Made by a program: the position numbers and the translations under genes. Shown here one piece after another: positions 26,697 to 58,833 of a stretch of 64,000 bases of DNA. The stretch's first letter is position 1, and the number at the start of each line of letters is the position of its first letter. A model generated the notes under the pieces. It did no database searches and had not been told where the DNA came from. It saw only the letters and a list, made by a program, of their open reading frames with translations. Source of the stretch: Prunus persica (lineage: Eukaryota > Streptophyta > Magnoliopsida > Rosales > Rosaceae); assembly GCF_000346465.2 (NCBI RefSeq), contig NC_034009.1, positions 44,980,240 to 45,044,239 on the forward strand, given 5' to 3'.

Positions 26697-27060
26697 TTAG
26701 TTATAATAGATTAATAGGTTATTTTATTATTTGTTTTCCTATTCTTACTAGGATTTGGTTCAATTTCCTGTTTTGGTTTTAATTTCCTTCGTCAATTAGG
26801 GTTTCTTATTAAACTAGGAATAGGAATACTTGGCTGGTGTATTCTAGTATAACTAGGCTATTTAGAGACTCTTGTATTTAGTTTTTGTTGATGAATATAA
26901 TTTCAGACGTTAGTCTATAGAGTTTCTGTTGGGAGTTTGCCCTAGAACTCAATTATCTTTGTACCAACTTCAATTCTATTGCTTTATCCTTCTATTCTCT
27001 GTATTTTGGGTATGTTTGGGTCGCTGAACAGCAGCTTATAGTTGCTGCCCTGCATCATTT
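26697..27060 (+). repeat. LTR-like repeat related to the one in EME1 intron 11
   Basis: It contains TATAACTAGGC, GAGACTCTTGTATTTAG and GCCCTAGAACTC in the same order and spacing as 19260–19360. It ends about 160 bases before the TIR-VQ start codon, so it may have altered that promoter. No coding sequence was seen. Confidence 0.6.
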
Positions 27061-27218: not shown

Positions 27219-28983
27219 ATGGATACCAGTATAGTGGATGAAGCCTCCTCTCCATCCTCTTCATCCTGCTCCTCAAATGATGAGATGTATGATGTGTTCT
27301 TGAGCTTTATCGGCGTAGACTCACGCAAGACCTTCATGGACCACCTCTACTGGACATTGAAAGACGCCAGAGTCGATGTCTTTATTGCTGAGAATAAACT
27401 AAGAGGACCAAAACTGATGCAAGCAATTGAACAATCCAGAATCGCTGTCATCATCTTCTCAAGTGGGTATGCATTTTCCATAGGGTGTCTTCAGGAGCTG
27501 GAGAAGATCATGGAGTGTAGAAGAACACTAGGGCAAATGGTTTTGCCAATTTTCTATCATGTTGATCCTAAAAATGTCGGGAAACAAATCGATAGTTTTC
27601 CAGTGAACCACCATGGAGTTAAAGATTGGGAAGAAATGATGCGGTCATGGAGAAAATCTCTAATTGAGGCCACAAATTTGTCCGGCCTTGTTTATATGAA
27701 GAGTGAAGGGTAACTACATACTTATTTCCATCTTTGTTTATTCTTTTCTTCTTTTTCTTAATGTTTTTTCCCGACCTATTTTTTGCATACCACCACCATA
27801 CATTATTTCAATGATTCCTTTTTACAATATTTAAGTGCCAAAATCATCTTTGGTTTTTATCAGTGTAATGCAAAGTTTAGGATCACTGATACGAGAATTT
27901 ATAAACACTCTTTTTCTATCACACGTGTGGTCAGATATGGAGCTAATCGATTCACATGGATTTACATAGTGCACCACTATATTATTTATATTTAAATATA
28001 TTTCCATTAGAGTTTTCAGAAGTTTACAAAATCGTAGTGGGATTCTGAGATTTTGATTCAGCAATTTTGGATAAATGTTGAACTAATACATTCAAATCTT
28101 ATTCAATCCCAAGCTCTGTAGTCATAATGAATAAGATGGTAGTTCAATTTAATCTTGCAGCGGCCTAATAAATCTTACTTTTGCACAATTTTGAGTTTTA
28201 ACTATCAGGTATGAAGGAATGTTAATCAGAAAAATTGTTGACGAGATCACCAGAAAACTGAAGAGCACATGCGTAGACGTAGTCACCGAACAAGTAGAAT
28301 TAGATTCAAGCATTCAAGAAATCAGTAATGATTTAAAGGTTCATGTTGGAAAAGATTCTCGATTGCAAGAAATCAGTGCTCGTTTAGATATTGGAGGCCC
28401 AAAATATGCTCACATTCAACCCCAGGGCCCACGGCCCACTGCTTTCAAAGTCAACAAAGCGTCGGTCAAGATAAAGAAGCGACCACCTCATGCAGTTGTG
28501 AAATGCTGCCGGACTGTGGTCATCCAAGCCAATCCTAGTGAGTTCAAGTCCTTAGTCCAACGCTTTACCAGCACTTCCTCTTCACCGTCCTCCGGTGATG
28601 GCGGCCTCTCACCAGCCGCAAGACTCGCCTCCATCAACAAAACAACCCTTCATTCTTCTTCCACTTCAGATCACAAGAAGCCTTTGATTCCCACCATTTC
28701 TTCTCATGACGAAGACTTTATGGGAAGTATTTGTAATAATCTTAAAGATCTAGGAAGAGGAGAAGGAGGAGGAGGATCCCTGCAAATTGATGAAACGCGT
28801 CACTTTCCAGGCTTATTGTCTCCTGCCCCAGCCAGTTTGCCGTCTATCCCACATGGGTTTTTCTCTCATCAGCATGACGGCGCCCTTATGCCATCTCCAA
28901 CTGGAGCAGGCCAAATCCAAAAATTGAGTTCTAGCCCATATTGTTTACTGGCCAGGCCAAAATTTCCCCCAAGCCCAAGATAA
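27219..28983 (+). CDS. TIR–VQ fusion protein (TNL exon 1 joined to an MKS1-like VQ protein)
   Basis: Two exons, 27219–27709 and 28209–28983, join in frame (1,266 nt, 421 aa). Exon 1 is a TIR domain close to the 43-kb TNL (MYDVFLSF, CLQELEKIMEC, GQMVLPIFY). It has changes: RGEDTR is IGVDSR, WCL is GCL, and about five residues are lost after ENKLRG. Exon 2 starts as a normal TNL NBS exon (YEGMLIRKIVDEITRKL, then RLQEISARLDIGG). Where the P-loop should follow it becomes a VQ protein: QGPRPTAFKVNKASVKIKK, the VQ core FKSLVQRFT at about 276–284, SPAARLAS, and at least six Ser-Pro sites. QGPRPTP, KIKKPP and SP sites are typical of MKS1-type VQ proteins, which bind MAP kinases and WRKY factors. No NB-ARC or LRR is left in frame. 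Expression is not shown. It may be a working fusion or a recent pseudogene. Confidence 0.75.
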
Positions 28984-29214
28984 AGCGGAATATAGCCTGA
29001 GATTCCAGTCGCACTCAAAATGGTGGAGCCGACGATCGGATGCTGAGCGAGCAGCCAACGTGAAAATGAAGCTTAAGATGGACCCCAGCTGATAGCTGCT
29101 ATTGAAGGCAAGCTGCTGTAAGCTATCCAACGGCTTGATTGGAATTGCTTTTTAATTTTTTCAATTAAACGGCAAACATGATTATATATCCAACAACTGT
29201 AGTGCAATCTCATT
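28984..29214 (+). other. 3' flank of TIR-VQ up to the gypsy insertion
   Basis: About 230 bases follow the stop, of mixed composition becoming AT-rich, probably the fusion's 3' UTR. They end with TCATT (29210–29214), the left target duplication of the gypsy element. Confidence 0.4.
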
Positions 29215-29272
29215 TGTTGATGCTCAAAATGGTTAGGCCAAGGTTGAACCCAACTTAGTGATGAGGTATGTG
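29215..29272 (-). repeat. Truncated 3' LTR of the gypsy element
   Basis: These 58 bases match the start of the right-hand LTR (34004 onward) with one visible difference, then the similarity stops abruptly at GAGGTATGTG. The remaining 440 bases of LTR are missing. Confidence 0.9.
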
Positions 29273-32229
29273 ATCAATGGTACAGATGAGTGGGGCTTGT
29301 GTGCTGGGTTGGTCCAAGAATTCAATGTGGATGTGGCGACCTATGCCCTGCTCCAAGGCGGATGCTAACCTGGCCAACGCATCAGCATGGCTGTTCTCAG
29401 AGCGTGGCACCTGGTTTATAGAATGGGCGTGGAAGGTTGCAAGCAAGTGCCGGGTGTGCTGGAGGTAAGCTGTCATAGAGGCATCCTTGGCCGTGAAGTC
29501 CTGGTTGACCTGATGGACGACGAGCTGTGAATCGCTGAATATCTGAATTTGTTTGGCGTCCATCTCTTTGGCTAGTCGAAGACCAGCTAAGAGTGCTTCA
29601 TATTCGGCCTCATTGTTGGAGGCTTGGAATTTGAAGCGGAGGGCGTACTCAAGGGTAACCCTGTCTGGGGAGATGAGAACGAGGCCGACCCCACACCCCT
29701 GGGCATTAGAAGAGCCATTCACAAATAAAGTCCATAGGGGCTGGGTCAAGTTGAAAGTGCCTTTGTGGGCGGTGTGGTCTTGGCCCGGAGGGGGATTGGG
29801 TTCGTTGACGAGCTGGGTAGCTACTGAAGTTTGGGGTTCCGTGAATTCGGATAAGAAGTCAGCAACGGCCTGGCCCTTTGTAGTTGGGCGGGGTTTGTAG
29901 TGAATATCAAACTCACCAAGTTCAATGGCCTACTTAAGCAACCTCCCAGAGGTGTCTGGTTTCTGCAACACTTGTCGGAGTGGCTGGTTGGTTAAGACAT
30001 GGATGATGTGAGCTTGAAAATATGGTCGGAGGCGTCTAGCCGAGACGACCAGGGCGAACGCCAGTTTTTCAATGTCTGGGTACAGGGCCTCGACATCTTG
30101 CAATGCTTTACTAACATAATGCATTGGGTGCTCCGCGTTATCCCTTGGTCGGATAAGCACAGAGCTTACTGCTGAAACGGAGACGGAGAGATAAATTACG
30201 AGGATGTCTCCGTGCTCAGGGGTTGACAATAAAGGGGCCCGGCCCATATACTCCTTGAGCTTGCTGAAAGCCGTGTCACATTTAGCAATCCAGGTGATGC
30301 TTCGCTTGCTGCCCTTAAGTGCCTTGAAGAATGGGGCGCAGCGGTCAGTGGCCTTGGAGATAAATTTGGTCAGGGTTGCAACACGCCCTGTAAGGCTTTG
30401 GATATCTTTGACCGTCTTAGGTATTGTCATGTCTAAGATGGCCTGGATCTTTTCTAAATTGGCCTCAATACCCCTCTGGCTGATCATGAAGCCAATGAAT
30501 TTATCGGAAGCCACCCCGAATGCACATTTGGTGGGGTTGAGCCTTATTTTGTACTGCTTCAAGATGGTGAACATGGCAGAGAGGTTAGGGATGTGTTGGT
30601 CAGCTGTGCGACTCTTGACCAGCATGTCATCAACATATACTTCCATGGTGTTGCCAATCAGTGGGGCGAAGAGGCTGTTCACCAGACGCTGATAAGTAGC
30701 CCCGGCGTTCTTGAGGCCAAAGGGCATCACCTTATAGCAGTAGAGGCCACGATCCGTAATGAAGGAGGTGTGGGCTTGATCTTCGGGGTGCATAAAGATC
30801 TGGTTGTAACCTGAGTAAGCATCCATGAAGCTAAGAAGGGCGTGGCCAGCTGTGGCGTCGACTAGCTGGTCAATGCGGGGTAGGGGGAAGCTATCTTTTG
30901 GGCAGGCCCGATTAAGGTTGGTGTAATCTACACACATGTGCCAGCCCTTTCTTGGTTTACGGACCATCACTACATTAGCCAGCCATGTAGGGTAGTCAAC
31001 TTCCCTGATGAATCCGATACTACGCAATCGATTCACCTCTGCCCTCATGGCCTCATAGCGCTCGGGGTCGTAAGCGCGATGCTTCTGTCGGACTGGTCGA
31101 ACGGCTAGATTGACGCTGAGCCTATGGGATATGATATCTGGTGATATGCCAGGCATGTCATTGTAGGACCATGCGAAGACTTCGGAGTTGAGGCGGAGGA
31201 AGGCGACGAGGTCAGAACGAAGCTCTTGAGAGATGGAGGTGCCGATCCGGACTTGCCGATTCGGGATGTCGTCATGAAGAGTAACCAGCTCTAGGTCTTC
31301 TACAGGTTCAGCCTGCTGTGTGACAGACTCCTCCCTTAGGTCCTCAGGTCATTCTGTGCCAGCTTGAGGAGGGGCGGGAGCCTTGGTTACTGCGAGGGCC
31401 TCACGACTATGTTGGCGATTTGTGGATTTGACTGCTGAAGCATAGCAGCTTCGGGCACCGAGTTGATCGCCGTGCACCATGCCTGTGCCATTAGGCGTAG
31501 GGAACTTCAGCAGCAGCATATGTGTGGAAATAAAAGCCCTCATTTGGGCCAAGACGGGGCGTCCAAGGATGACGTTGTATGCTGTGGGATAGTCAATGAT
31601 AAGGAAGGGGGTAGTGATCGTCGCCCGCCGGGGTGCGGCCCCAATAGATATAGGGAGATGAATGCTGCCAATGGGCTAGACCACATCACCTGAGAAGCTC
31701 ACAAGGGGTGTGATGCTTCGGTCGAGTAAGTGAGACGGGACCTGGAGCTCATTGAAAGCGTCAGCAAACATCACACTGACTGAGCTGCCAGTGTCCACTA
31801 AGATACGCCCAACGTCGAAATTAGAAATGTCCGCACGGATAATGAGTGGATCATCATTGGGGAGGATAACACCACGCTCTTCCTCATCGCAGAAGGTAAT
31901 GGGGGCCCAACCCAACTTTTGGGTCTTCGGCAGGCGTCCCTATTCGGTGCTGAAGACTTGGTGCGCATAGGTGGAGCGGACATAATGTTTGATGGACTTG
32001 TTGGAGGTGCCGGCCAGGGTAGGACCACCACTGATGGTGGAGATCATGTTGATCTGTCTTTGGTGAGGGTTAGGCGGGGGTGCTAGGTTGTGCACGTAGT
32101 TGTCCAGCTTTCCCTCACGGATAAGCCATTCAATTATGTTGTGCAACGCAACACAAGATTCGGTGTCATGGCCGTTGAATTGATGAAAGCGGCAGAAGAC
32201 ACCCTTGTTTGGCATAGGCTTGCTAAATG
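29255..32229 (-). pseudogene. Gypsy pol: protease, reverse transcriptase, RNase H (broken)
   Basis: Minus-strand reading frame 31915→29255 shows protease ILVDTGSSVSVMF. It then shows reverse transcriptase with VRKPRKGWHMCVDYTNLN, MPFGLKNAGATYQR and the catalytic YVDDMLVKS, and two RNase H regions. The upstream gag end region (MPNKGVFCRFHQFNGHDTES) is in the same frame. In-frame stops interrupt it after VFSTE, GDVV, QAGTE and SGRLLK. Several look like CAG or TGG codons turned to TAG. Integrase is absent. Confidence 0.88.
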
Positions 32230-33891
32230 GTCTCCAGGGGGTGGCTTGGGGATGATAGGGGCTTCACGCACTAGGACATTCTCATAGGTGGTGTTGAGGG
32301 TGGTAAAAACCTCGAACCTAGGCCTGGGTGTGAAGGGAAGTGGGGCCCGATCAGTAGTCTTGGGAGGGTTGCCTCCACTAGATTGGTGGTGGTTGCCATG
32401 TTTGCCACGTTTGTTGTTGCTGAAGGGGTGCTGGTAGCTATCCTTCTGTTTTGGTTGTTGGGTACCCTAGGTACTTGGGGCTGGGGTAGAATGCTGAGGT
32501 GGGGCTGGGGCGGGCACTGAAGCAGGTGGAGGATCGGCGAAAGTGTGGCGCGCCAGGTTGGCTGGGCCACGCTTGGAATTGAAGTATTCGGCTTTAGCAT
32601 GGAACGCTGCCTACTTCATTAGCTCTGTATATGTGTTCCAACTGTTGCTATGAACCAGGTAGCGGAAGTTGGATTCGCGGAGGCCACTCTTGAAAGCCCC
32701 AAGGGCAGCGCGATCGTCAGTCCCTGGGCAGCGGAAGTATTCGTGACTGAACAGGGCTGCATATTCCCGAAGGGATTCGTCCTCAGCCTGCCGAAGCATA
32801 TACAAGTCGTCGGCGGAGGAGTATAGGCGATCAGTCTGGATCATAAAATGGTCCAGGAAGGTCTGCTTGAGACTGTCGAACGAGTTGATGGTGCGGGGGT
32901 GGAGTCTATAGAACCAGTTTAGGGCCACGCCGCTGAGGGTGGAAGGGAAGAGGAGGCACATGCCTTCGTCAGTGAGGGCTTTGCACCCAAGGGCAGACTG
33001 GAAGGAGTGGATATGGGTGAGAGGGTCCTCCGTGCCAGTGTAGAAGGCGATGCGGAGCGGCTGGATATCTTTCTCCTGGTGGTAGTGGAGGATACGTTCA
33101 GTAAAGGGCCCCGGTCGTGGTTTTGCCCAGAGGGGTTGATGGCTGCGATGTTGTTCGCTTTCCAGACGCCGGACCTTCTCAAAGAGAAGCCTCATGGCCG
33201 GGTTGGCATGAGGAAGAGTTTCGGGTGCTAAAGGCCTGGGGGGTGGGCAGACAGGGGCTGGGGAATGTTCCCAATCTTCCGATGCCTCGGTGTGGTAAGT
33301 TGGCCAGGCCTCTGAATTATAAAATTCCCAGCTATAAGAGTCCCCTACGCCCTCCTCGTCGGGTAAGCGGGCGGGCCCTGGTGAAGGGCCCAGGTGTGTC
33401 ACTCGTGGGTCTTCGAGGTTAACAAGAACAGGGATCGGCTCCGGTTGACGGTCTGAAATACGGTCTCTGCAATCTCTGTAGATCCTGACCGGTTCATGAG
33501 GCCGGTCCTTCGGTGGGGGAATGCAAAGGAGTCGCGACTGAGTTAGCTCCGGATGAAGGTGGCCTTTACCCTTGCGGAGCCTAGATTGGGCCGGGGCGCT
33601 CTGGCTGGAATGTACTAGCTGATTTGGCTGGGTATGCTCAACATTCTGGGTGAGGTCTTGTTGGGCATCCTGGGTGTGAGTCCTCTCCCAGTTCCGCTTT
33701 AGAGCATGATAGTCATGCTCTAGCTCAACATTCCTGCAATGAAGATGCTTGTATTTCTCCGACATTTTAGTAATACTGTCGCGGAGGCGCTCCACTTCTG
33801 CCTGGAGAGTGGCATCTCCCGGAGATTTCCTTCGGGAAGTACCATCGCGGGGGGTATGGTGCTGGGTATCGCGGCTATCCTCGGTCGGCAT
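32230..33891 (-). pseudogene. Gypsy gag (broken)
   Basis: The frame opens at 33891 (MPTEDSRDTQ) and includes a coiled coil (TLQAEVERLRDSITKMSEKY). The retrotransposon gag core follows: IAFYTGTEDPLTHIHSFQSA, LNWFYRLHP, FLDHFM, and LREYAALFSHEY. A stop falls after NTYTELMK (about 32610); the frame then continues AAFHAKAEYFNSKRG, so one codon has mutated. A frameshift near 32230–32245 separates it from the pol frame. Confidence 0.85.
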
Positions 33892-33984
33892 AGCAGAGTG
33901 TGGGGTGAAGAAGAGGCGACGGGGCCTGATGGGTGAAGGAGCCAGCTGGGCTGATAGAGAAAGAGGGGATTCTAGTGTCGTTTC

Positions 33985-34003
33985 CCACAGACGGCGCCAA
34001 ACT
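33985..34003 (-). other. Primer-binding region of the gypsy element
   Basis: Immediately inside the right LTR the minus strand reads GTTTGGCGCCGTCTGTGGG. A TGGCGCC primer-binding core in this position is common in plant gypsy elements. It confirms that the right LTR is the 5' LTR and that the element reads leftward. Confidence 0.75.
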
Positions 34004-34501
34004 GTTGATGCTCAAAATGGTTAGGCCAAGGTTGAGCCCAACTTAGTGATGAGGTATGTGGAGTCTTCAGCAGGGAAGAGGGCTAAGGCCCTTGGTGAAA
34101 TAGGCTGGTGGGGGGCCTGCAGAAGACAAAATGGGAGAAGCAATTGTTAAGCTTCGGGCACCAGTGTGGTGCCGGTCGAAGGCTCTCCGATGCCTAAGTC
34201 AGCTATAAGTGGTAACTGTGGCAGAGTAACAGTAAAAGTCAGAAAGTAGTTCTCCTTTTTTACCTGGGTACTGTTCCCTATTTATAGGGAAGTAAAAGTA
34301 GGAGGTTTGCACAAAGTTTCAATGTGGGACTTTGTGCAAGTCGTCGTGGAGGCGACACGTATCCTGGAGATTAGGTTTGGCCATTGGGAGCTTCAGCAGG
34401 TGTCTGGCACCTCGGAAGTGTGTCTTCAGGGAAGAAGGCGTGGCTGCCTTGGTGCTAGTCGCTTTGATGCTGGGTCTGCTCGGTTCACTATGGTGTAAAC
34501 A
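34004..34501 (-). repeat. 5' LTR of the gypsy element
   Basis: A complete 498-bp LTR runs from TGTTGATGC to GTAAACA in plus coordinates and contains CTATTTATAGGG near 34278, a TATA-type signal in either orientation. Its first 35 bases closely match the left end of the separate element at 43948, so the two elements are relatives. Confidence 0.88.
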
Positions 34502-34534
34502 TCATTGATTTATTTTCATAATTGGCAGGGAATT

Positions 34535-34912
34535 GGCAATCTCATTGATTTCTTCTCTATGCACAAAAAGCACAAGCGGAATGGAATTGCATTGGATAAA
34601 TTGAAAACACTTTCTCATTGGGAAACTCACGTAAAGCTTAAAATAAGCTATGTTCAGCTAGCTGATGATTGCCCGAGAGATACATTGCTTGATATATCTT
34701 GTTTCTTCATTGGAATGAACAAGAACTATGTCATGCATTTATTGGACGGTTGTGGCTTTTCTCCAGTAATAGGAATGAGCCTTTTAACTGTTGGTGATAA
34801 AAAAACAAGCTGATGATGCATGGTTTGGTTCGAGACATGGACAGAGAAATCGGACGTGCAAAATCTTTACATCCATGGAAGGCCTAGTAGATTGTGGAAT
34901 CATGAAATGTAA
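34535..34912 (+). pseudogene. NB-ARC (ARC2) remnant of the type B TNL
   Basis: The frame gives IALDKLKTLSHWETHVKLKI, then SYVQLADD, then LLDISCFFIGMNKNYVMHLL and GFSPVIGMSLLTVGD. This matches the RNBS-D region of the 43-kb TNL. A segment is missing after VIGMS, and an A-run shifts the frame before LMMHGLVRDMDREIGRAK, the MHD motif with Asp changed to Gly. Two adjacent stops follow. It is the C-terminal end of the NBS exon that the TIR-VQ gene lost. Confidence 0.85.
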
Positions 34913-35140
34913 AACGCCTACTGAGGAACCAATTGGTAACATTTGCTATCAGTTGTATTACATGCATGTAGGTAATGAAAGAGAAGTATACGTATATCCC
35001 ACATCTAATAAATTTTATGCCTTTCATGTAGTTCCTACATCCAATTCATGGCTTTTCTTCATGTGTATATATGACATCTTTTTTACATGCAAATAACCCC
35101 CTTCTTACTTTGCCCTTTTCATTTTATTTTCTTCTAACAG
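34913..35140 (+). other. Decayed TNL intron
   Basis: This lies between the NB-ARC remnant and the next exon remnant. No open frame is seen, and an acceptor-like TTCTAACAG ends it at about 35141. Confidence 0.4.
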
Positions 35141-35370
35141 GAAACGGGGGAAATTGAAGGACTCACTTCAGAATCTGACGAGCGTAGCTTCAGTACAGAA
35201 GCATTTAGAAGGATGTGAAGACGAGATTGGTCAAACTCAATTACATAAAGCTGACTGGTAGTTAATAGCATCTTTCGAAAGAGTTACGATTATTGTGTTA
35301 GTATGGATTTCTTCTGGAGGTCATACCCGAAGATTTTAATCAAGAAAACCTAGTTGCTATTTAAATGGAG
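35141..35370 (+). pseudogene. First LRR exon remnant of the type B TNL
   Basis: After TCTAACAG the frame reads ETGEIEGLTSESDERSFSTE, then AFRRM and a stop. The equivalent exon of the 43-kb TNL reads EEIEALTLDLQESEDPSFSS then EAFRRMWRLRLL. Later matching pieces (near 35310–35350, GGTCATACCCGAAGATTTT for VIPEDF) are in broken frames. No further LRR exon is found to the right, where the MITE at 35565 begins. Confidence 0.8.
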
Positions 35371-38771: not shown

Positions 38772-41700
38772 TTATTCAGGCCTCATACGCTTCTTCACGT
38801 AATTCTTCCGATAACTCTCTAGTAAGAGGTCACGCGAGGGTTTGCTTGGCCACGCGTCATCATCAGCCGCTTCTTCAGACTCTTCACTCCTTCGCTTTCC
38901 TTTTTCAGGCATCAAGTTGCCTTCCAGTCGCAAGTAAATTTCCTTTACCGACAACGGTGTCGTTTTCCATATGAGGTTATGCGAGGGTTTGCTTGGCCAC
39001 GCGTCATCATCAGTATCAGGATATGTATATGGTTTAGACTCCCACTCCATCTCATGTACCTTACCTGCATGTGTAGAAACACTCTGTTCTAGACAGAGTC
39101 CTGTTTTCTTCAACTTTAAATGCTTCTTGCCCTCTTCTCTTAAGAATTCTGCGCGAGCATGAACCTTGTCCCCGCCTTTCAGATTGAGAACATTGTTTGG
39201 TATACGTCCAAGCCAGAGATAATCTTCATGGGGAGTCACTCCAGAGACGGTCATTGGAAATATGGAAAATGCAGTGCGCTGGGTACGATTCGCAACAGTC
39301 AAAGAAAATCTCCCACTAGACTCCGAGTCGTCTGAGGAATAAATGATGCACACAGTCAAGGCAGCTATGCCAGAATTCGGCACATCGATATAGACAATTT
39401 CATCCTCATTGACCACAGCTGTGAACCACGAAGGAATATCATTTCCAGAGAAGAAAAGGCCACCCCCTCCGCTCGCGGCCCATCCCTATACCATGTGGAG
39501 AAAGTTTTGTGTAAGCATTACAAATCTTGACTCTGCGTGAATGTATGCATGTGAGTCAGAGAAAGATAGAGAGATTACCTGTAGGATTCTCTCCTTAAAC
39601 CGAGCACTGAGATTGGTGCAGCCTTCCATATGAATCGTTTCCATGGAGTGTAACAAGTCACCCAAGGCTTTAGTATACTGGAGGTTGCGGCAGTCCTTCA
39701 GATCCAATTCTCTCATATTCGACCTCTTTGCCAAAAATTCAATGCTTTTTAGTACAGTGCAGTAATTCGCTTTCAGGAATTTCAAAGTCTTTGGTAAATC
39801 ACTGATTCGTGTAAGGTTTTTGCAATCATTTAAAGTTAACTCTTCAAGTTCGGAAAGAGAACCGAGCCCAGGTAGCCTATCGAAACCATTTCCATCCAGA
39901 CGTAAAATTTTTAAAGAACGTAGAAAACGAAGCTCATTAACAACTTTATCTTCAGTTAAGTTGCAGTACCCAAGATCAAACAATTTAAGCTTGTCCAACC
40001 GTCTCATCATGGAATAGTGACCCCATAACAAACGCTTACAGCCTCTGAGTATCAATTCCTCGAGATTTGGGAGTCTTGAAAAGTCGGGTAATTCTTTCAG
40101 GCAAGCGGAATGGCTGAGATGAAGACACTTCAACTCCGAAAGAAACTGTTAGACAAAACGGAAAACAAAAATCAAAATTCAAATAGAAGTGAGAAAGCAT
40201 GGAGGAACGGATTAATGAATTGGTTGAGGTTATGATTATACTGTACCACGTGGGAATCCTCCCAAACTCGTATGAGCTTGCTATGGCTCATGTCAATAGC
40301 AACTAGGTTTTTTTGATAAAAGTCTTTTGGTATGACCTCCAGAGGAAATCCATGCCAACATAACCATCTTAACTCTTTGGAAATATGCTTGTAGCTTCCA
40401 GTCAGCTGTACATAATTGAGTTTGAGCAATCTCAATCTCCACATCCTTCTAAATGCTTCGGAACTGAAGCTAGGATCCTCAGATTCTTGCAAATCTAAAG
40501 TGAGTGCTTCAATTTCCTCTGTTCCCTGTTAGAAGCAAAAAAGAAAATGAAAAAGACAAAAGGAAAGAAGAAAAGGGAACGAAGTAAGAAAAGGGTACCC
40601 CTGGAAAGCCATATAATTCAATAAAAAGATTTTGAGATAATTCAATAAAACCAGTTCCTCTCTTCTCTATATACCCAAAGTTTACAATTTATAGACATGC
40701 CATTTTTAGTTAACTAGCTCATGCGCTATTGTAACATTGGGTTATACCAGTGATCCATTTGACTACATTATTTTTTTCTTAGCTACCAAATTGAAATTCT
40801 GTGTAAAACCCAGTAACCAAAAAGATCTTTAACAATTATTTTAATGCCGCTCTCTCAGTTTACTTAGCGAAAAACTACTGGTATATCTACTGGTATATTT
40901 ATATAAATTGTAAACGTTGTGTTACACAATGATCAATTTTGTTACTCAGTGATAAATGGATATTTAACCCCCCGAAATCTAATATGTATACACGACATTG
41001 TATTGTATACTCAGTGTCCTCATTAAATTTATTAGATGTAGGATATGCATAAACTTCTCTAACTACCTGCATTTAAACAATCAGATTGTGAATGTACTTA
41101 CAGATTTGTTCCTCAATACGTCTTTTACATCTTCCTGATGCCACAATCTACTACGTTCTCCAGCGATGTTAGGGGATTGTGCACGTGCAATTTCTCTGCC
41201 CATGTCTCGAACCAAATCATGCATCATCAACTTGTTATCTTCACCAACAGTTAAGAGGCTCTCTTCAAGGAGGACACTCAGTCCTATTACCGGAGAAAAG
41301 CCACGACGGACCAATATTCGCATGACATAGTTCATGTCCATTCCAATGAAGAAACATGATATATCAAGGAATGCATCTCTCAGGTAATTATCAGGTAGCT
41401 CATCATAGCTTAATTTAAGCTTTTGGTGAATTTCCTTAGGAGGAAGACTTTTCCATTTATCCAATGCATTTCTCCATTCTGTTGTGCTTCTATTGTATAG
41501 AGAAGAGCCTAAAACTTTCAGTGCTAGTGGCAAACCACCACAGTAAACAACAACTTCTCTTGAGAGTTCAAGATATCCTTCACTTGGACAACGACGTTTA
41601 AAGGCATGCAAACTAAGTAGCTCAAGAGCTTCTACTTCATTCATTGCTTTAAGGCTACATATCTTATCCACTTCAATTATCTCTAGCAAATGTTTGTTTC

Positions 41701-43046
41701 TTGTTGTTATAACAATTCTACTTCCTCGACCAAAGGAGTCACGTTTAATAGCTAATGCCTTTAGTTGGTCTACATGACAGATATCATCAAATATAACAAG
41801 TACCTTTCTTGTTGGAAGTCTTTTCTTTATCTCATACCTCCTGTCATCCATACTACTTCCCTCTGCCTTTGTCGGTTTCAAGATATCAAAGAGAAGTTGT
41901 TCTTGAAGATCAACCAGTTTCCTTTCCCTCATGTTTTGAATGAAACTTTTAGCATCAAAACTGGGATGATATTTGTTGAAAATAGCTTCTGCAACCGTTG
42001 TTTTACCCATTCCGCCCATACCCCAAATTCCAATTATGCGAACATCATTTGATCCTCCAACATCTAAATGAGTACTAATATCTTGCAAGCGAGAATCTAC
42101 TCCAACTGCAACCGTTGTTAATTTTCTGTTGATCTCGTCAATAATTTTCCTGATAAACACTCCTTCATACCTGGTAGATAAAATCAAAATTGAGCAAAGT
42201 AAGATTTATTAGGAACAGATTAAATTGAACTAATATTTTACTATTATGAATACAGAGCTTGGGAAAATTGAATATATAGTTGAACATTTAATCAGAAATT
42301 GATGAACCAAACTTTTAAAATCCTACTAAAATTTTGTAAACTTCTGAAAACATTACAAGAAACATATTTAATTGCGGTGCACCATGTTGATCCTGATCCA
42401 TGTGAATCGATCAGAGTTTAGCTCAGCATTACTCTGAAAACCCAAAGATGGGTCGGGAATAACATTAAGAAAATGAAGAAAAAAACAAAGAAATGGAAAT
42501 AAATAATTACCCATCACTCTTGCTAAAAACAAGGCCGTCCAGACCTGCAGCTTCAGTTAGAGACTTTCTCCACGACTGTATATTTTCTTCCTCATCTTTA
42601 AATCCATGGAAGCGCACTTCATGTGTCTGAAATGCTTCTGCAAAACTACCAGTTTGTTTCCTGACATCTTCAGCATCAACATCATAGAAAATTGGCAAAA
42701 CGATTTGCCCCAGTGTTCTTCTACACTCCATGATCTTCTCCAGCTCCTCAAGACACCATATGGAATCCGCATACCTCCTTGAGAAGATGATGACAGAGAT
42801 CCTGGACCGTTCGATTATTTGCTTGAGTTCGTCTGGTAAAATTTCTCCTCCTCTTATTTCATTCTCATCAATAAACACGTCGACTCTAGCATGTTTTAAC
42901 CTCCAGTAGAGGTGGTCGGTGAAGGTCTTGCGTGTGTCTTCACCTCTAAAGCTCAAGAACACATCGTACATCTCATCGTCTAAGGAGCAGGTTGAAGAGG
43001 ATGAGAAGGTTGGAGAGGAGGCTTCAACGGCTGTACTGGTATCCAT
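38772..43046 (-). CDS. TNL disease-resistance protein, type B copy 2 (full length)
   Basis: TIR-NBS-LRR immune receptor. Five exons join in frame: 42511–43046, 41102–42170, 40247–40525, 39579–40145 and 38772–39485 (3,165 nt, 1,054 aa). The TIR domain begins at MYDVFLSFRGEDTRKTFTDH and keeps WCLEELEKIMEC. P-loop GMGGMGKT is at 229–236, kinase-2 VLVIFDDI at 302–309, GLPLAL at 391–396 and MHD at 495–497. LRRs follow (LEELILRGCKRL, LKILRLDGNGF, LEELTLNDCKNL). The last exon encodes a long C-JID starting LFFSGNDIPSWF, which in TNLs helps bind effectors. The C-terminus repeats DDDAWPSKPS twice. The start at 43046 is chosen because MDTS and its leader match the TIR-VQ gene; a 50-codon upstream extension is open but unlike any TIR leader. 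No break is seen, so this is the best candidate for a working receptor here. Confidence 0.92.
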
Positions 43047-49425: not shown

Positions 49426-49561
49426 CCTCTAAGATTGCGCCGCGTGTCATATCTATATGTGTACATTTTTCTATAAAATCAGAGGTTCAGCTCATACCTC
49501 CCACACCAGTTCTTCTCTACATTTCCATTTCTCAAATTTTAGATTTCATTCTCCATTCTCA

Positions 49562-50827
49562 ATGGCAGACATGGAAGAGGTTTTGGAGAGGCAAGAGCGA
49601 GAAACTAGAGAAAGAATGCGTAGACGAGCTGCAAGCAAAAGGGCGCAGAGAGAACTAGATGAGCAACTTGGCATAGCAGTTGCTTTGCTGGAGGAAGAAA
49701 AGCAGGCTTGTTGTGGTTCACGAGAAGGCCGTCGCCCAAATGTGGACAGACATAGACATTCCCGGGGTAAGAATCTTATGAAAGATTATTTTATCCCACA
49801 ATCTCTGTACTCTGATGTTCATTTTCGAGGGAGATATAGAATGCAACCCCATTTGTTCAATAAAATCATGCATGATATTTGCAATTATGATGAATATTTT
49901 GTTCAAAAAAGAAATTGTGCTGGAAATTTGGGACTTCTTCCAGAGCAGAAGTTCACAGCTGTGATACGAATGTTGGCGTATGGGTCATCTGCTGATCAGG
50001 TGGATGAGATTGCTCGGATGGGGAAGTCCACTGTTTTGGAGAGCTTGGTGCGATTTTGTGATGCAGTGGAAACTCTTTACACCAGAGACTACCTCCGCAG
50101 ACCTACGCCCAGGGACCTGCAAAGGCTTCTCCAAAAAGCTGAGTCTCGAGGATTCCCTGGCATGATTGGTAGCATTGACTGCATGCACTGGCAGTGGAAA
50201 AATTGTCCAACTGCTTGGCAAGGGGACTACGGAAATAGAAAAGGGCAGAAAAGTATCATCCTGGAAGCAGTTGCTGGTTTTGATACATGGGTTTGGCACG
50301 CCTTCTTCGGAGTTGCCGGATCTCAAAACGATTTGAATGTCCTATGTCAATCCCCGGTGTTCAATGATGTTTTGAGAGGTGAAGCCCCAAATATCACATA
50401 TGAAATTAACAATACCATCTACCAGACCGGGTATTATCTAGCTGATGGCATATACCCGAGGTGGACAACATTTGTGAAAACAATTCCACATCCCCGATCC
50501 CATAAGGAAATTTTTTTTGCTCGCTATCTAGAGGGGTACAGAAAAGATGTTGAGAGGTGCTTTGGTATCCTTCAAGCTCGGTGGGCTATTATCAGGGGCG
50601 CGGCACGTCTATTTGACGAGGAGGTGCTTAGGAGTATAATGATGACTTGTATCATCCTCCATAACATGATTGTGGAAGATGAATATGATTACGATGCTGA
50701 TGACGTGTATGAACCAAATCCCATGGACATGGCCCTAACACGAATTTATGAAAACCAGTGGGGCCAAATGGAGAAGCAGTGCAGCATAAACCGTTGGTTA
50801 GAGACGGTAGTTTCATGCCCCGTATGA
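49562..50827 (+). CDS. PIF/Harbinger transposase (DDE_Tnp_4)
   Basis: A single 421-aa open frame from MADMEEVLERQERETRERMR. Arg/Glu-rich N-terminus, then a domain entry (YRMQPHLFNKIMHDICNYD, LAYGSSADQVDEIARMGKST) that resembles the helix-turn-helix part. The catalytic triad is visible: Asp206 in GMIGSIDCMHWQW, Asp257 in GVAGSQNDLNVL and Glu331 in YRKDVERCFGILQARW. LADGIYPRWTTF and CIILHNMIVEDE are family hallmarks. The ATG at 49562 is chosen because it starts the conserved protein; an open 35-codon extension upstream lies in AT-rich leader. No stop or frameshift is present. Transposition would also need the partner ORF, which is broken in this copy but could be supplied from elsewhere. Confidence 0.93.
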   Translation: MADMEEVLERQERETRERMRRRAASKRAQRELDEQLGIAVALLEEEKQACCGSREGRRPNVDRHRHSRGKNLMKDYFIPQSLYSDVHFRGRYRMQPHLFNKIMHDICNYDEYFVQKRNCAGNLGLLPEQKFTAVIRMLAYGSSADQVDEIARMGKSTVLESLVRFCDAVETLYTRDYLRRPTPRDLQRLLQKAESRGFPGMIGSIDCMHWQWKNCPTAWQGDYGNRKGQKSIILEAVAGFDTWVWHAFFGVAGSQNDLNVLCQSPVFNDVLRGEAPNITYEINNTIYQTGYYLADGIYPRWTTFVKTIPHPRSHKEIFFARYLEGYRKDVERCFGILQARWAIIRGAARLFDEEVLRSIMMTCIILHNMIVEDEYDYDADDVYEPNPMDMALTRIYENQWGQMEKQCSINRWLETVVSCPV

Positions 50828-56606: not shown

Positions 56607-58833
56607 TACCCGTTCCACCCATACCCGAAATGTCAATAATGCGAACATCATCTGATCCTCCAACATGCAAATAATTACTGACTTCTTGCACGCGGGATTT
56701 CATTTCAATTTCGTTGGTGGCTATGTGTAAGCATGTGTTATTCAATTTTCTGGTGATCTCGACCAATATTCTTTGTCGTGCAAAACTTTGCGCGACCAAT
56801 ACTTTTTGTCGTGCAAAACTTGCGCGAGCGACCAATATTTTTCGTTGCTCAAGGTAGATTTACGTGACGTTAAGTTTCGTCGCGCAAAGTAGCTCTGCGG
56901 GACGAAGTTTATTTTTCGTCGTGCAAACCCTTTCTTCACGAGTTTTGCGCGATGGATCATGCGTTTCGTTGTGCAGGTTTTGCGCGACAAAATTGTACTT
57001 TGTGCAACAAACTTATTTTATCGCGCAAAGTATTTTTTTAAGTAGTGTACTTACCTCTATCTTGGCCGGTTTCAAGACATCATAAAGTAGTTGATTTTGC
57101 AATTTAACCATATCCCCTTTCCTCACTTCTGAAAGAAAACTCTCACCTTGAAAACTTTGATGAAATTTGTTGAAAATGGCGTTTGCAACTGTCGTCTTAC
57201 CCATTCCACCCACACCCGAAATGCTAATAATGCGAACATCATCTGATCCTCCAACATGCAAATAAGTACTGACTTCTTGCACGCGGGATTTCATTCCAAT
57301 TTCGTTGGTGGATATGTGTAAGCATGTATTGTTCAATTTTCTGGTAATCTTGACCAATATTCTTTGTCTCGCAAAACTTTGAGCAATCAATACTTTTCGT
57401 CACGCAAAACTTGCTCGAGCGATCAATATTTTTCGTCGCTCAAGGTAGATTTGTGCATCGTTAAGTTTCGTCGTGCAAAGTAGCTCTGCGCGACGAAGTT
57501 CAATTTTTGTTGCGCAAACCCTTTCTTCACGGGCTTTGCGCGACGGATCACGCGCGACGAAATTTTCGTCGTGCAGGTTTTGTGCGACGAAATTGTACTT
57601 TGCGCAACAAACTTATTTCGTCGCGCAAAGTGTTTTTTTGTAGAAGTGTACTTACCTCTATCTTGGCTGGTTTCAAGACATCACAAAGAAGTTGATTTTG
57701 CAATTTAACCATATCCATTTTCCTCACTTTTGAAAAAAAAACTCTCACCTTGAAAACTTTGATGAAATTCGTTGAAAATGGTTTTTGCAACTGTCGTCTT
57801 ACCCGTTCCACCCATACCCGAAATGCCAATAATGCGAACATCATCTGATCCTCTAACATGCAAATAATTACTAACTTCTTGCACGCGGGATTTCATTCCA
57901 ATTTCATTAGTGGATATGTGTAAGCATGTGTTGTTCAACTTTCTGGTGATCTCGACCAATATTCTTCGCCGCGCAAAACTTTGCTCGACCTATACTTTTC
58001 GTCGTGCAAAACTTGAGCAAGCGACCAATATTTTCCGTCGCTCAAGGTAGATTTATGCGACGTTAAGTTTCGTCGCACAAAGTAGCTCTACGCGATGAAG
58101 TTTATTTTTCATCGTGCAAAACCTTTTTTCATGAGTTTTGTGCGATGGATCATTCATTTCGTCGCGCAGGTTTTGCTCGACAAAATTGTACTTTGCGCAA
58201 CAAACTTATTTCATCGCACAAAGTATTTTTTAAAGTAGTGTACTTACCTCTATCTTGGCCGGTTTCAAAACATCATAAAGAAGTTGATTTTGCAATTTAA
58301 CCATCCCATTTCCTCATTTCTGAAAGAAAACTCTCACCTTCTTTGACGAAATTCGTTGAAAATGGCTTTTGCAACTGTTGTCTTACCCGTTCCACCCATA
58401 CCCGAAATGCCAATAATGCGAACATCATCTGATCCTTCAACATGTAAATAATTACTGACTTCTTGCACGCGGGATTTAATTCCAATTTCGTTGGTGGCTA
58501 TGTTTAAGCATGTGTTGTTCAATTTTCTGGTGATCTCGACTAATATTCTTCGTTGCGCAAAACTTTGCGCGACCAATACTTTTCGTCGTGCAAAACTTGT
58601 GCGAGCGACCAATATTTTTCGTCGCTTAAGGTAGATTTGCGCAACGTTAAGTTTCATTGCGCAAAGTAGCTCTGCGCAACGAAGTTTATTTTTCATCACG
58701 CAAACCCTTTCTTCACGAGTTTTGCATGACGGATCATGCGGGACCAAATTTTCGTCGCGCAGGTTTTGTGTGACGAAATTGTACTTTGCGCAATAAACTT
58801 ATTTCGTCGAGCAAAATGTTTTTTTTAGTAGTG
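56607..58833 (-). repeat. Array of antisense P-loop fragments alternating with a 'GCGCGACG' element
   Basis: Read on the minus strand, each unit of about 590 bp has a 0.3-kb piece of a TNL NBS exon (ITRKLNNTC, SRVQEVSNYLHVGGSDDVRI, GMGGTGKTTVA, FLSEVRKGDMVKLQNQLL, KPAKIEVS). Then follows a 0.29-kb element starting CACTACTT and rich in TTTGCGCGACGAA. There are four element copies (about 56756–57048, 57352–57650, 57957–58242, 58540–58833), three full NBS pieces and one partial. Copies have different small deletions and frameshifts and none is a whole gene. The element's CACTA start suggests a CACTA-type or Pack-type origin. That is inference. Confidence 0.85.

Follow-up and report, generated by a model that had tools for sequence, protein, structure and literature searches.

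A TIR-VQ gene in Prunus persica, probably derived from a TNL receptor gene that captured a segment of MKS1

The uptake of VQ proteins by plant immune receptors is already known. In the accessible part of a survey of domains integrated into nucleotide-binding leucine-rich repeat receptors (NLRs), VQ is listed among such domains in nine species, peach not being one of them (PMC4759884), and strawberry FvVQ13 is described, in the portion of the report available to us, as a VQ-LRR-NB-ARC protein with reference transcripts in the octoploid (PMC6427031). Here we consider a 64,000-nucleotide stretch of the Prunus persica genome (NC_034009.1, positions 44,980,240 to 45,044,239; hereafter the window), in which a gene on the plus strand at 27219-28983 joins the TIR domain of a TIR-NB-ARC-LRR receptor (TNL) in frame to a VQ segment of the MKS1 type. 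MKS1, a MAP-kinase substrate, belongs, together with MPK4 and WRKY33, to a defence pathway. Replacement of the nucleotide-binding (NB) core by the captured protein, followed by survival as TIR-VQ, is a variant of the known event without report in the literature searched.

A further search of predicted proteins gave three matches at E<=0.01 among 650 candidates (P0126, P0008 and P0127). The Brassica carinata protein P0127 has the layout kinase-VQ-TIR-NB-ARC-LRR, with an MKS1-like VQ part whose motif reads VH. In Rubus argutus, P0126 unites an RPW8 domain and a nearly complete MKS1, its start Met kept, in one predicted protein, which may represent either a second MKS1 capture in Rosaceae or two merged gene models. 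The Brassica, strawberry and nine-species cases make VQ capture by receptors a known kind of event, and with the strawberry protein, P0127 and perhaps P0126 they bear out an earlier note on this DNA, according to which immune receptors carry such proteins.

The literature search found no report of a TIR-VQ layout. The main text of a VQ survey of six Prunus species (PMC8710041), whose gene lists stand in its supplements, mentions no TIR, NB-ARC, fusion or MKS1; a term search did not find "VQ motif" in the available text of a peach NLR paper (PMC13269891), nor "VQ motif", "VQ domain" or Prunus in the main text of a 305-genome survey of integrated domains (PMC12787737). The main text of the six-species survey counts 26 peach VQ genes (PMC8710041), of which the TIR-VQ gene could be one; our own scan found 27 VQ places in the peach genome.

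The gene and the former TNL behind it

The spliced frame of 1266 nt encodes 421 residues, from the ATG at 27219 to a stop codon that ends at 28983, with no inner stop. Exon 1 (27219-27709), which codes for residues 1-163 and includes two bases of codon 164, holds the TIR domain and is followed by a GT-AG intron (27710-28208; donor GT at 27710, acceptor AG at 28207-28208) across which the phase is kept. Exon 2 (28209-28983, 775 nt) starts as a TNL linker and turns into an MKS1-type VQ protein. TNL homology at the DNA level stops and MKS1 homology begins within a few bases of position 28414, as placed by the blast ends, so that the linker before the P-loop occupies 28209-28413 and the MKS1-derived segment runs from 28414, about MKS1 codon 15, to approximately 28896, with the VQ motif FKSLVQRFTS at 28543-28572. 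The earlier note had read the in-phase joining of 27709 to 28209, the TNL-like start of an exon that stays open throughout and the switch to VQ just before the P-loop in the same way, and the motifs that it quoted (QGPRPTAF, KIKKRPP, FKSLVQRFT and SPAARLAS) are present at residues 236, 251, 276 and 298. Relative to the neighbouring TNL, the linker carries a 72-nt in-frame insertion (28262-28333), which makes a repeated S..QEIS pattern.

When the two exons were searched apart against Pfam, TIR (4.5e-31), TIR_2 and VQ (1.1e-6; 28.4 bits against a cut-off of 20.5) scored above the cut-off. NB-ARC and LRR were not among the matches of the two exons, and three unrelated families matched weakly, below the cut-off, in a listing from which HMMER leaves out most matches above about 0.1. 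The TIR is of the plant TNL type, its closest PDB relatives by sequence being RPV1, RUN1 and RPP1. The protein has the N-terminal TNL-type TIR and the lack of NB-ARC and LRR that define TIR-X proteins, and in its present form it does not contain the NB-ARC that defines an NLR with an integrated domain. The closest genomic relative of the fusion TIR is a TNL on the minus strand of the window at 38775-43046 (70% identical in the TIR), which we used as the template for the ancestral layout. The closest relative of the VQ part is a single-frame MKS1 at C2:93.8-94.5 kb, 60% identical over query residues 27-172. The genome searched comprised 227,527,450 bases in 192 contigs, with the window at C1:44980240-45044239.

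The present stop codon (28981-28983) and about the last 30 residues are supplied by an inserted sequence within the MKS1 segment (28897-29214, start approximate), and the 231 bases of this insert downstream of the stop have no second copy in the genome besides themselves. The tail, roughly residues 392-421, comes from the insert, so that of the six Ser-Pro sites in exon 2 three (residues 393, 406 and 419) were not inherited from MKS1; the count of six or more in the earlier note stands, but half of the sites lie outside the MKS1 part. The insert is interrupted by a gypsy-like element with long terminal repeats (LTRs) on the minus strand (29215-34501, 58-bp repeats; class assigned by eye from gag- and reverse-transcriptase-like frames), flanked by a TCATT target-site duplication at 29210-29214 and 34502-34506. 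Only 58 bp of the second LTR match, no integrase frame was seen by eye, and a primer-binding-like TTGGCGCC lies beside the other LTR.

Beyond the element, the MKS1 match resumes on the plus strand at 34514-34545 (NWQGIGN; 23 of 26 bases at 34514-34539 are those of peach MKS1), within 15 bases of where MKS1 homology had stopped. It is followed on the same strand by decayed, frameshifted remains of ARC2, the last two-fifths of the TNL NB-ARC exon (34551-35021), and then by what is left, likewise decayed, of the following TNL exon in the direction of the LRR (35101-35367). The statement that the fusion lacks an NB-ARC and LRR of its own is thus right for the protein, whereas the locus still keeps their remains at about 34551-35367. 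As MKS1 and then ARC2 resume past the insert and the element, MKS1 appears to have replaced the P-loop part of the NB-ARC, with the stop supplied by the insert. Today the resumed MKS1 sequence is in one frame with the ARC2 stretch (NWQGIGN...ALDKLK...DISCFFIGM). Against this reconstruction it must be said that such agreement of frame has a one in three chance, that small indels lie beside the join, and that the MKS1 match beyond the element is short, 26 nt. On the other side, the matches of the predicted P. brigantina protein P0004 follow one another in the order VQ segment (28612-28818), insert (29056-29118, 81%) and MKS1/ARC2 join (34526-34579, 89%), which supports the VQ-insert-ARC2 arrangement from a second species.

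Taken from these alignments, a history in which an MKS1 piece replaced the NB core of a TNL and a later insert cut the frame appears well supported. The first step, in an ancestral Prunus, would have been an exchange: the NB-ARC core of a TNL, beginning shortly ahead of the P-loop and ending shortly past the GLPL motif, would have given way to part of a duplicated MKS1 that starts near codon 15 and stops close to the C-terminus, and the layout would have become TIR-VQ(MKS1)-ARC2-LRR. Tandem duplication of the fused gene, as well as the arrival of the insert in the MKS1 tail, would probably precede the peach/cherry split, and the stop that the insert brought would have left TIR-VQ. The ARC2-LRR behind the stop would then have decayed, and the gypsy-like element would have landed in the insert later.

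Relatives in Prunus and constraint on the frame

A protein database search with the VQ part returned eight predicted proteins at E<=0.001 among 1495 candidates. Almond P0001 is a TIR-VQ protein of 421 residues, 96% identical to that of peach, and two more, P0003 and P0005, whose locus numbers are adjacent, are predicted in P. speciosa. The search for TIR plus VQ in one protein of related species, which the earlier note had proposed, is answered by these three, and its concern that the fusion might be a chimera of this assembly is contradicted by them. We rejected an assembly or gene-model artefact, which is so improbable as to be negligible, because the same fusion is predicted in other Prunus species and nothing was found in favour of an artefact. 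Two of the remaining matches are ordinary MKS1 proteins of Malus and Pyrus. In a tree of the VQ part with 16 rows, the four TIR-VQ rows fall into a single clade (100/100), with peach MKS1 next to it (90/84, short of the star mark of the tool), in agreement with the MKS1-type identity proposed earlier. Within it, P0005 stands with peach and almond (86/85) and P0003 outside, which makes the tandem duplication probably older than the peach-cherry split; the PPSPR end is common to P0003 and peach and not found in P0005.

A second peach copy, about 28 kb upstream (C1:44974198-44979476), is a relic that keeps the last 32 TIR residues, the linker and roughly the first 20 residues of the VQ part, after which a stop follows. 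Its intron holds a Copia-type element with 247-bp terminal repeats that are 95.5% alike and with GTAAC(T) repeated on both sides. The introns of the window copy and the relic differ at 27 of 437 positions (6.2%) and exon 2 at 32 of 260 (Fisher 0.007). We do not claim positive selection on exon 2, as its synonymous divergence is high too (dS 0.167, dN 0.121), and gene conversion or uneven rates explain the exon 2 excess as well. Upstream of the gene in the window lies a repeat (26700-27058) that has dozens of copies in the genome, several arranged as pairs on the same strand at distances of 1.4-2.8 kb. It stops about 160 bases short of the ATG and might provide the promoter.

Against the TNL and MKS1 templates, all nine counted indels of the TIR-VQ frame are multiples of three: 3/3 in the TIR, 1/1 in the linker and 5/5 in the MKS1 core (36, 24, 3, 3 and 27). 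The MKS1 alignment has further gaps, of 13 left of the junction and of 4, 2, 7, 46 and 1 past the core in non-homologous sequence, which were not counted. By comparison, only one of five gaps in the ARC2 coding stretch of the same locus is in frame (Fisher 0.005), or three of seven (Fisher 0.019) if two gaps of 3 and 6 past the exon end are added, which were placed by eye and left out of the main count; TIR plus linker alone still differ from ARC2 (Fisher 0.048). In a simple neutral simulation of 1263-nt frames at 0.03 substitutions per site, 1.3% stayed open with indels counted, at an assumed 0.1 indel per substitution, and 26% on stops alone.

The amino-acid sequence tells another story. With seven MKS1 proteins of Rosaceae used for polarisation over 160 columns, in 112 of which peach MKS1 has the majority state of the family, 36 changes fall on the branch of the VQ fusion and 6 on that of MKS1; the ratio is 27 to 6 without block 258-271, and 19 to 6 without the end too. 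In the most conserved third of the columns, 18 of 55 changed on the fusion branch and none of 55 on the MKS1 branch, and by a permutation test (0.62) the fusion-branch changes do not spare conserved columns. The ratio of nonsynonymous to synonymous divergence (dN/dS) is 0.56 (0.40-0.79) between VQ part and MKS1, which, split by hand at 36:6, puts the fusion branch near 1; between the TIR and the neighbouring TNL it is 0.64 (0.38-1.17). Peach and almond differ at 11 of 188 positions in the VQ part versus 4 of 233 in TIR plus linker (Fisher 0.03), peach and P0003 at 36 of 180 versus 30 of 233 (Fisher 0.058). The frame therefore looks kept and the MKS1 content does not. The lasting open frame stressed in the earlier note does extend to the almond and P. 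speciosa gene models, but the VQ part is not under MKS1-type constraint, which touches what that note itself had named as speaking against its reading, the kept frame notwithstanding.

Several further points weigh against retention of the protein, together with the branch counts above. Some of the in-frame indels may predate the truncation or have arisen on the branch of the template. The VQ part of P0005 is truncated (VQ motif at 16.3 bits, under the Pfam cut-off), almond P0002 has a VQ part without a TIR, and in apricot P0008 and P. brigantina P0004 VQ pieces follow a DUF1421 domain, so that not all Prunus show the TIR-VQ layout. Peach itself has a DUF1421 gene at C1:45053560, some 44 kb downstream of the fusion.

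Possible functions of the two parts

The TIR domain was compared in a 10-row alignment of three Prunus TIR-VQ rows (the peach fusion, P0003 and P0005) and seven other peach TIRs. Glu93, at the catalytic position, is kept and corresponds in the alignment to the residue mutated in the RUN1 entry 7s2z (E100A), and His42 of helix A is invariant in all ten rows. In contrast to this retained Glu, the BB loop is incomplete: it is five residues shorter in all three TIR-VQ rows and in none of the other seven, and three to four residues shorter in alignments with RPV1, RUN1, RPP1 and SNC1. Moreover, FRG has become FIG (Arg in 7/7 other peach rows) and SxW has become SxG (Trp in 6/7), and seven residues on the D/E side are missing in the peach fusion and P0003, likewise in almond, and kept in P0005. 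In TNL resistosomes, according to the accessible part of the source, neighbouring TIRs form a composite substrate site with their BB loop and DE surface, and a TNL without the catalytic Glu still confers resistance (PMC12856790). A predicted model of almond P0001 has the plant TIR fold; with a mean predicted local distance difference test score (pLDDT) of 60.8 the model is poor outside the TIR and the linker helix, and the VQ part was not interpreted from it. Judging by the shortened loop and the altered DE side, the fusion TIR probably has weak or no NAD-cleaving (NADase) activity.

In the VQ segment, the GPRP, KIKK, VQ core (F..hVQ.hT) and SPAARLAS blocks are kept. The motif follows FxxhVQxhTG except for its final G, which is S (FKSLVQRFTS), and the hydrophobic residue seven places before the core is retained (register by eye); for SIB1 and WRKY33, both the VQ motif and the preceding segment are needed, according to the part of the study available (PMC11088704). 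Two elements of MKS1, the block IYxVSPKVIH and the C-terminal motif WDLFNNFL, are lost, which speaks against a maintained MKS1 function. At the position of the MPK-docking Leu, peach and almond have Phe and both P. speciosa copies Leu (register by eye); in Arabidopsis MKS1 this is Leu32, and the accessible text reports that L32A abolishes MPK4 binding (PMC3010986). With the core and the preceding hydrophobic residue kept and the docking Leu changed, WRKY binding would be more plausible than MAP-kinase binding.

The best explanation as a whole, which we hold tentatively and would place somewhat under an even chance, combines the captured-MKS1 history with a TIR-X protein that would be retained as an open frame and not as MKS1. 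Its TIR, probably a poor NADase, would act non-enzymatically, its helix A/E side associating with intact TNLs from its own cluster, and the disordered VQ tail, its WRKY-binding core kept, would present a bait or tether to a WRKY or an effector. A selected role as such a bait or adaptor is possible though doubtful. The fullest form of the proposal, a TNL that swapped its NB core for MKS1, lost its LRR and became in Prunus a stable non-enzymatic TIR adaptor with a VQ bait, reporting attacks on the MPK4-MKS1-WRKY33 pathway through adjacent intact TNLs, we regard as rather unlikely. The lost constraint, the changed docking Leu and the shortened BB loop make the "decoy or signalling chimera" of the earlier note no more than a possibility.

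It is also a real possibility, though one to which we give less than an even chance, that the gene is a decaying by-product of a TNL wrecked by the MKS1 insertion, its frame open by chance and without a selected role. The VQ part, changing about six times as often as MKS1 and ignoring conserved columns, would suit such decay, as would the shortened BB loop, the sister copy already a relic that is truncated and split by Copia, the layout broken up in apricot-clade gene models and the truncated P. speciosa copy. What decay would not readily produce is the excess of in-frame indels over the downstream stretch of the same locus, or the persistence of the open frame in all three of peach, almond and P. 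speciosa, despite the divergence described for the introns of the two peach copies, and the simulation gives neutral survival of the frame a low chance. Two further readings appear improbable. An active TIR enzyme gated by a VQ sensor, in which effector or MAP-kinase action on the tail would release NADase signalling via EDS1, is disfavoured by the BB loop, short relative to the other peach TIRs and to RPV1, RUN1, RPP1 and SNC1 alike, by the composite site to which this loop and the DE surface contribute in TNLs (PMC12856790, as far as accessible), and by the D/E-side deletion in two of the three TIR-VQ rows. Equally hard to credit is a tethered MKS1, whose VQ part would go on regulating WRKY33-like factors, subject to control by MAP kinases, while the TIR served only to position it: the four kept blocks would agree with this, but the Phe at the Leu32 position, the two missing MKS1 motifs and the lack of MKS1-type constraint would not.

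Other features and comparison with known systems

Elsewhere in the window, a 464-residue open frame at 49433-50824 resembles, by eye, a plant PIF/Harbinger-type transposase. On the minus strand at 58337-58798, an open frame with a short repeated peptide followed by TNL linker and P-loop sequence adjoins plus-strand TNL pieces.

Captured by receptor genes more than once among unrelated plants, in Prunus, in Brassica and perhaps in Rubus, MKS1 would stand out as a target worth guarding. The locus would furthermore present a captured domain that replaced the nucleotide-binding core and then outlived the receptor, which bears on the origin of TIR-X proteins.

With NLRs that carry an integrated VQ, the peach gene shares the capture of a VQ protein by an immune receptor, MKS1-like in Brassica P0127 as well. 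In peach, however, the VQ replaced the NB-ARC core and was not added to it, and the present frame ends before the ARC2-LRR. To MKS1 (VQ21) itself the likeness lies in the GPRP/KIKK block, the VQ core and the SPAARLAS block, and in the grouping of the fusion VQ with peach MKS1; the differences are the missing MKS1 start, IYxVSPKVIH block and C-terminal motif, the changed docking Leu, the fast evolution and the TIR in front. Finally, like TIR-X (TX) proteins, the predicted product consists of a TIR followed by a C-terminal region other than NB-ARC and is encoded within a TNL cluster, whereas its X can be recognised as an MKS1-type VQ segment that a former TNL had taken up, and the BB loop of its TIR is shortened.
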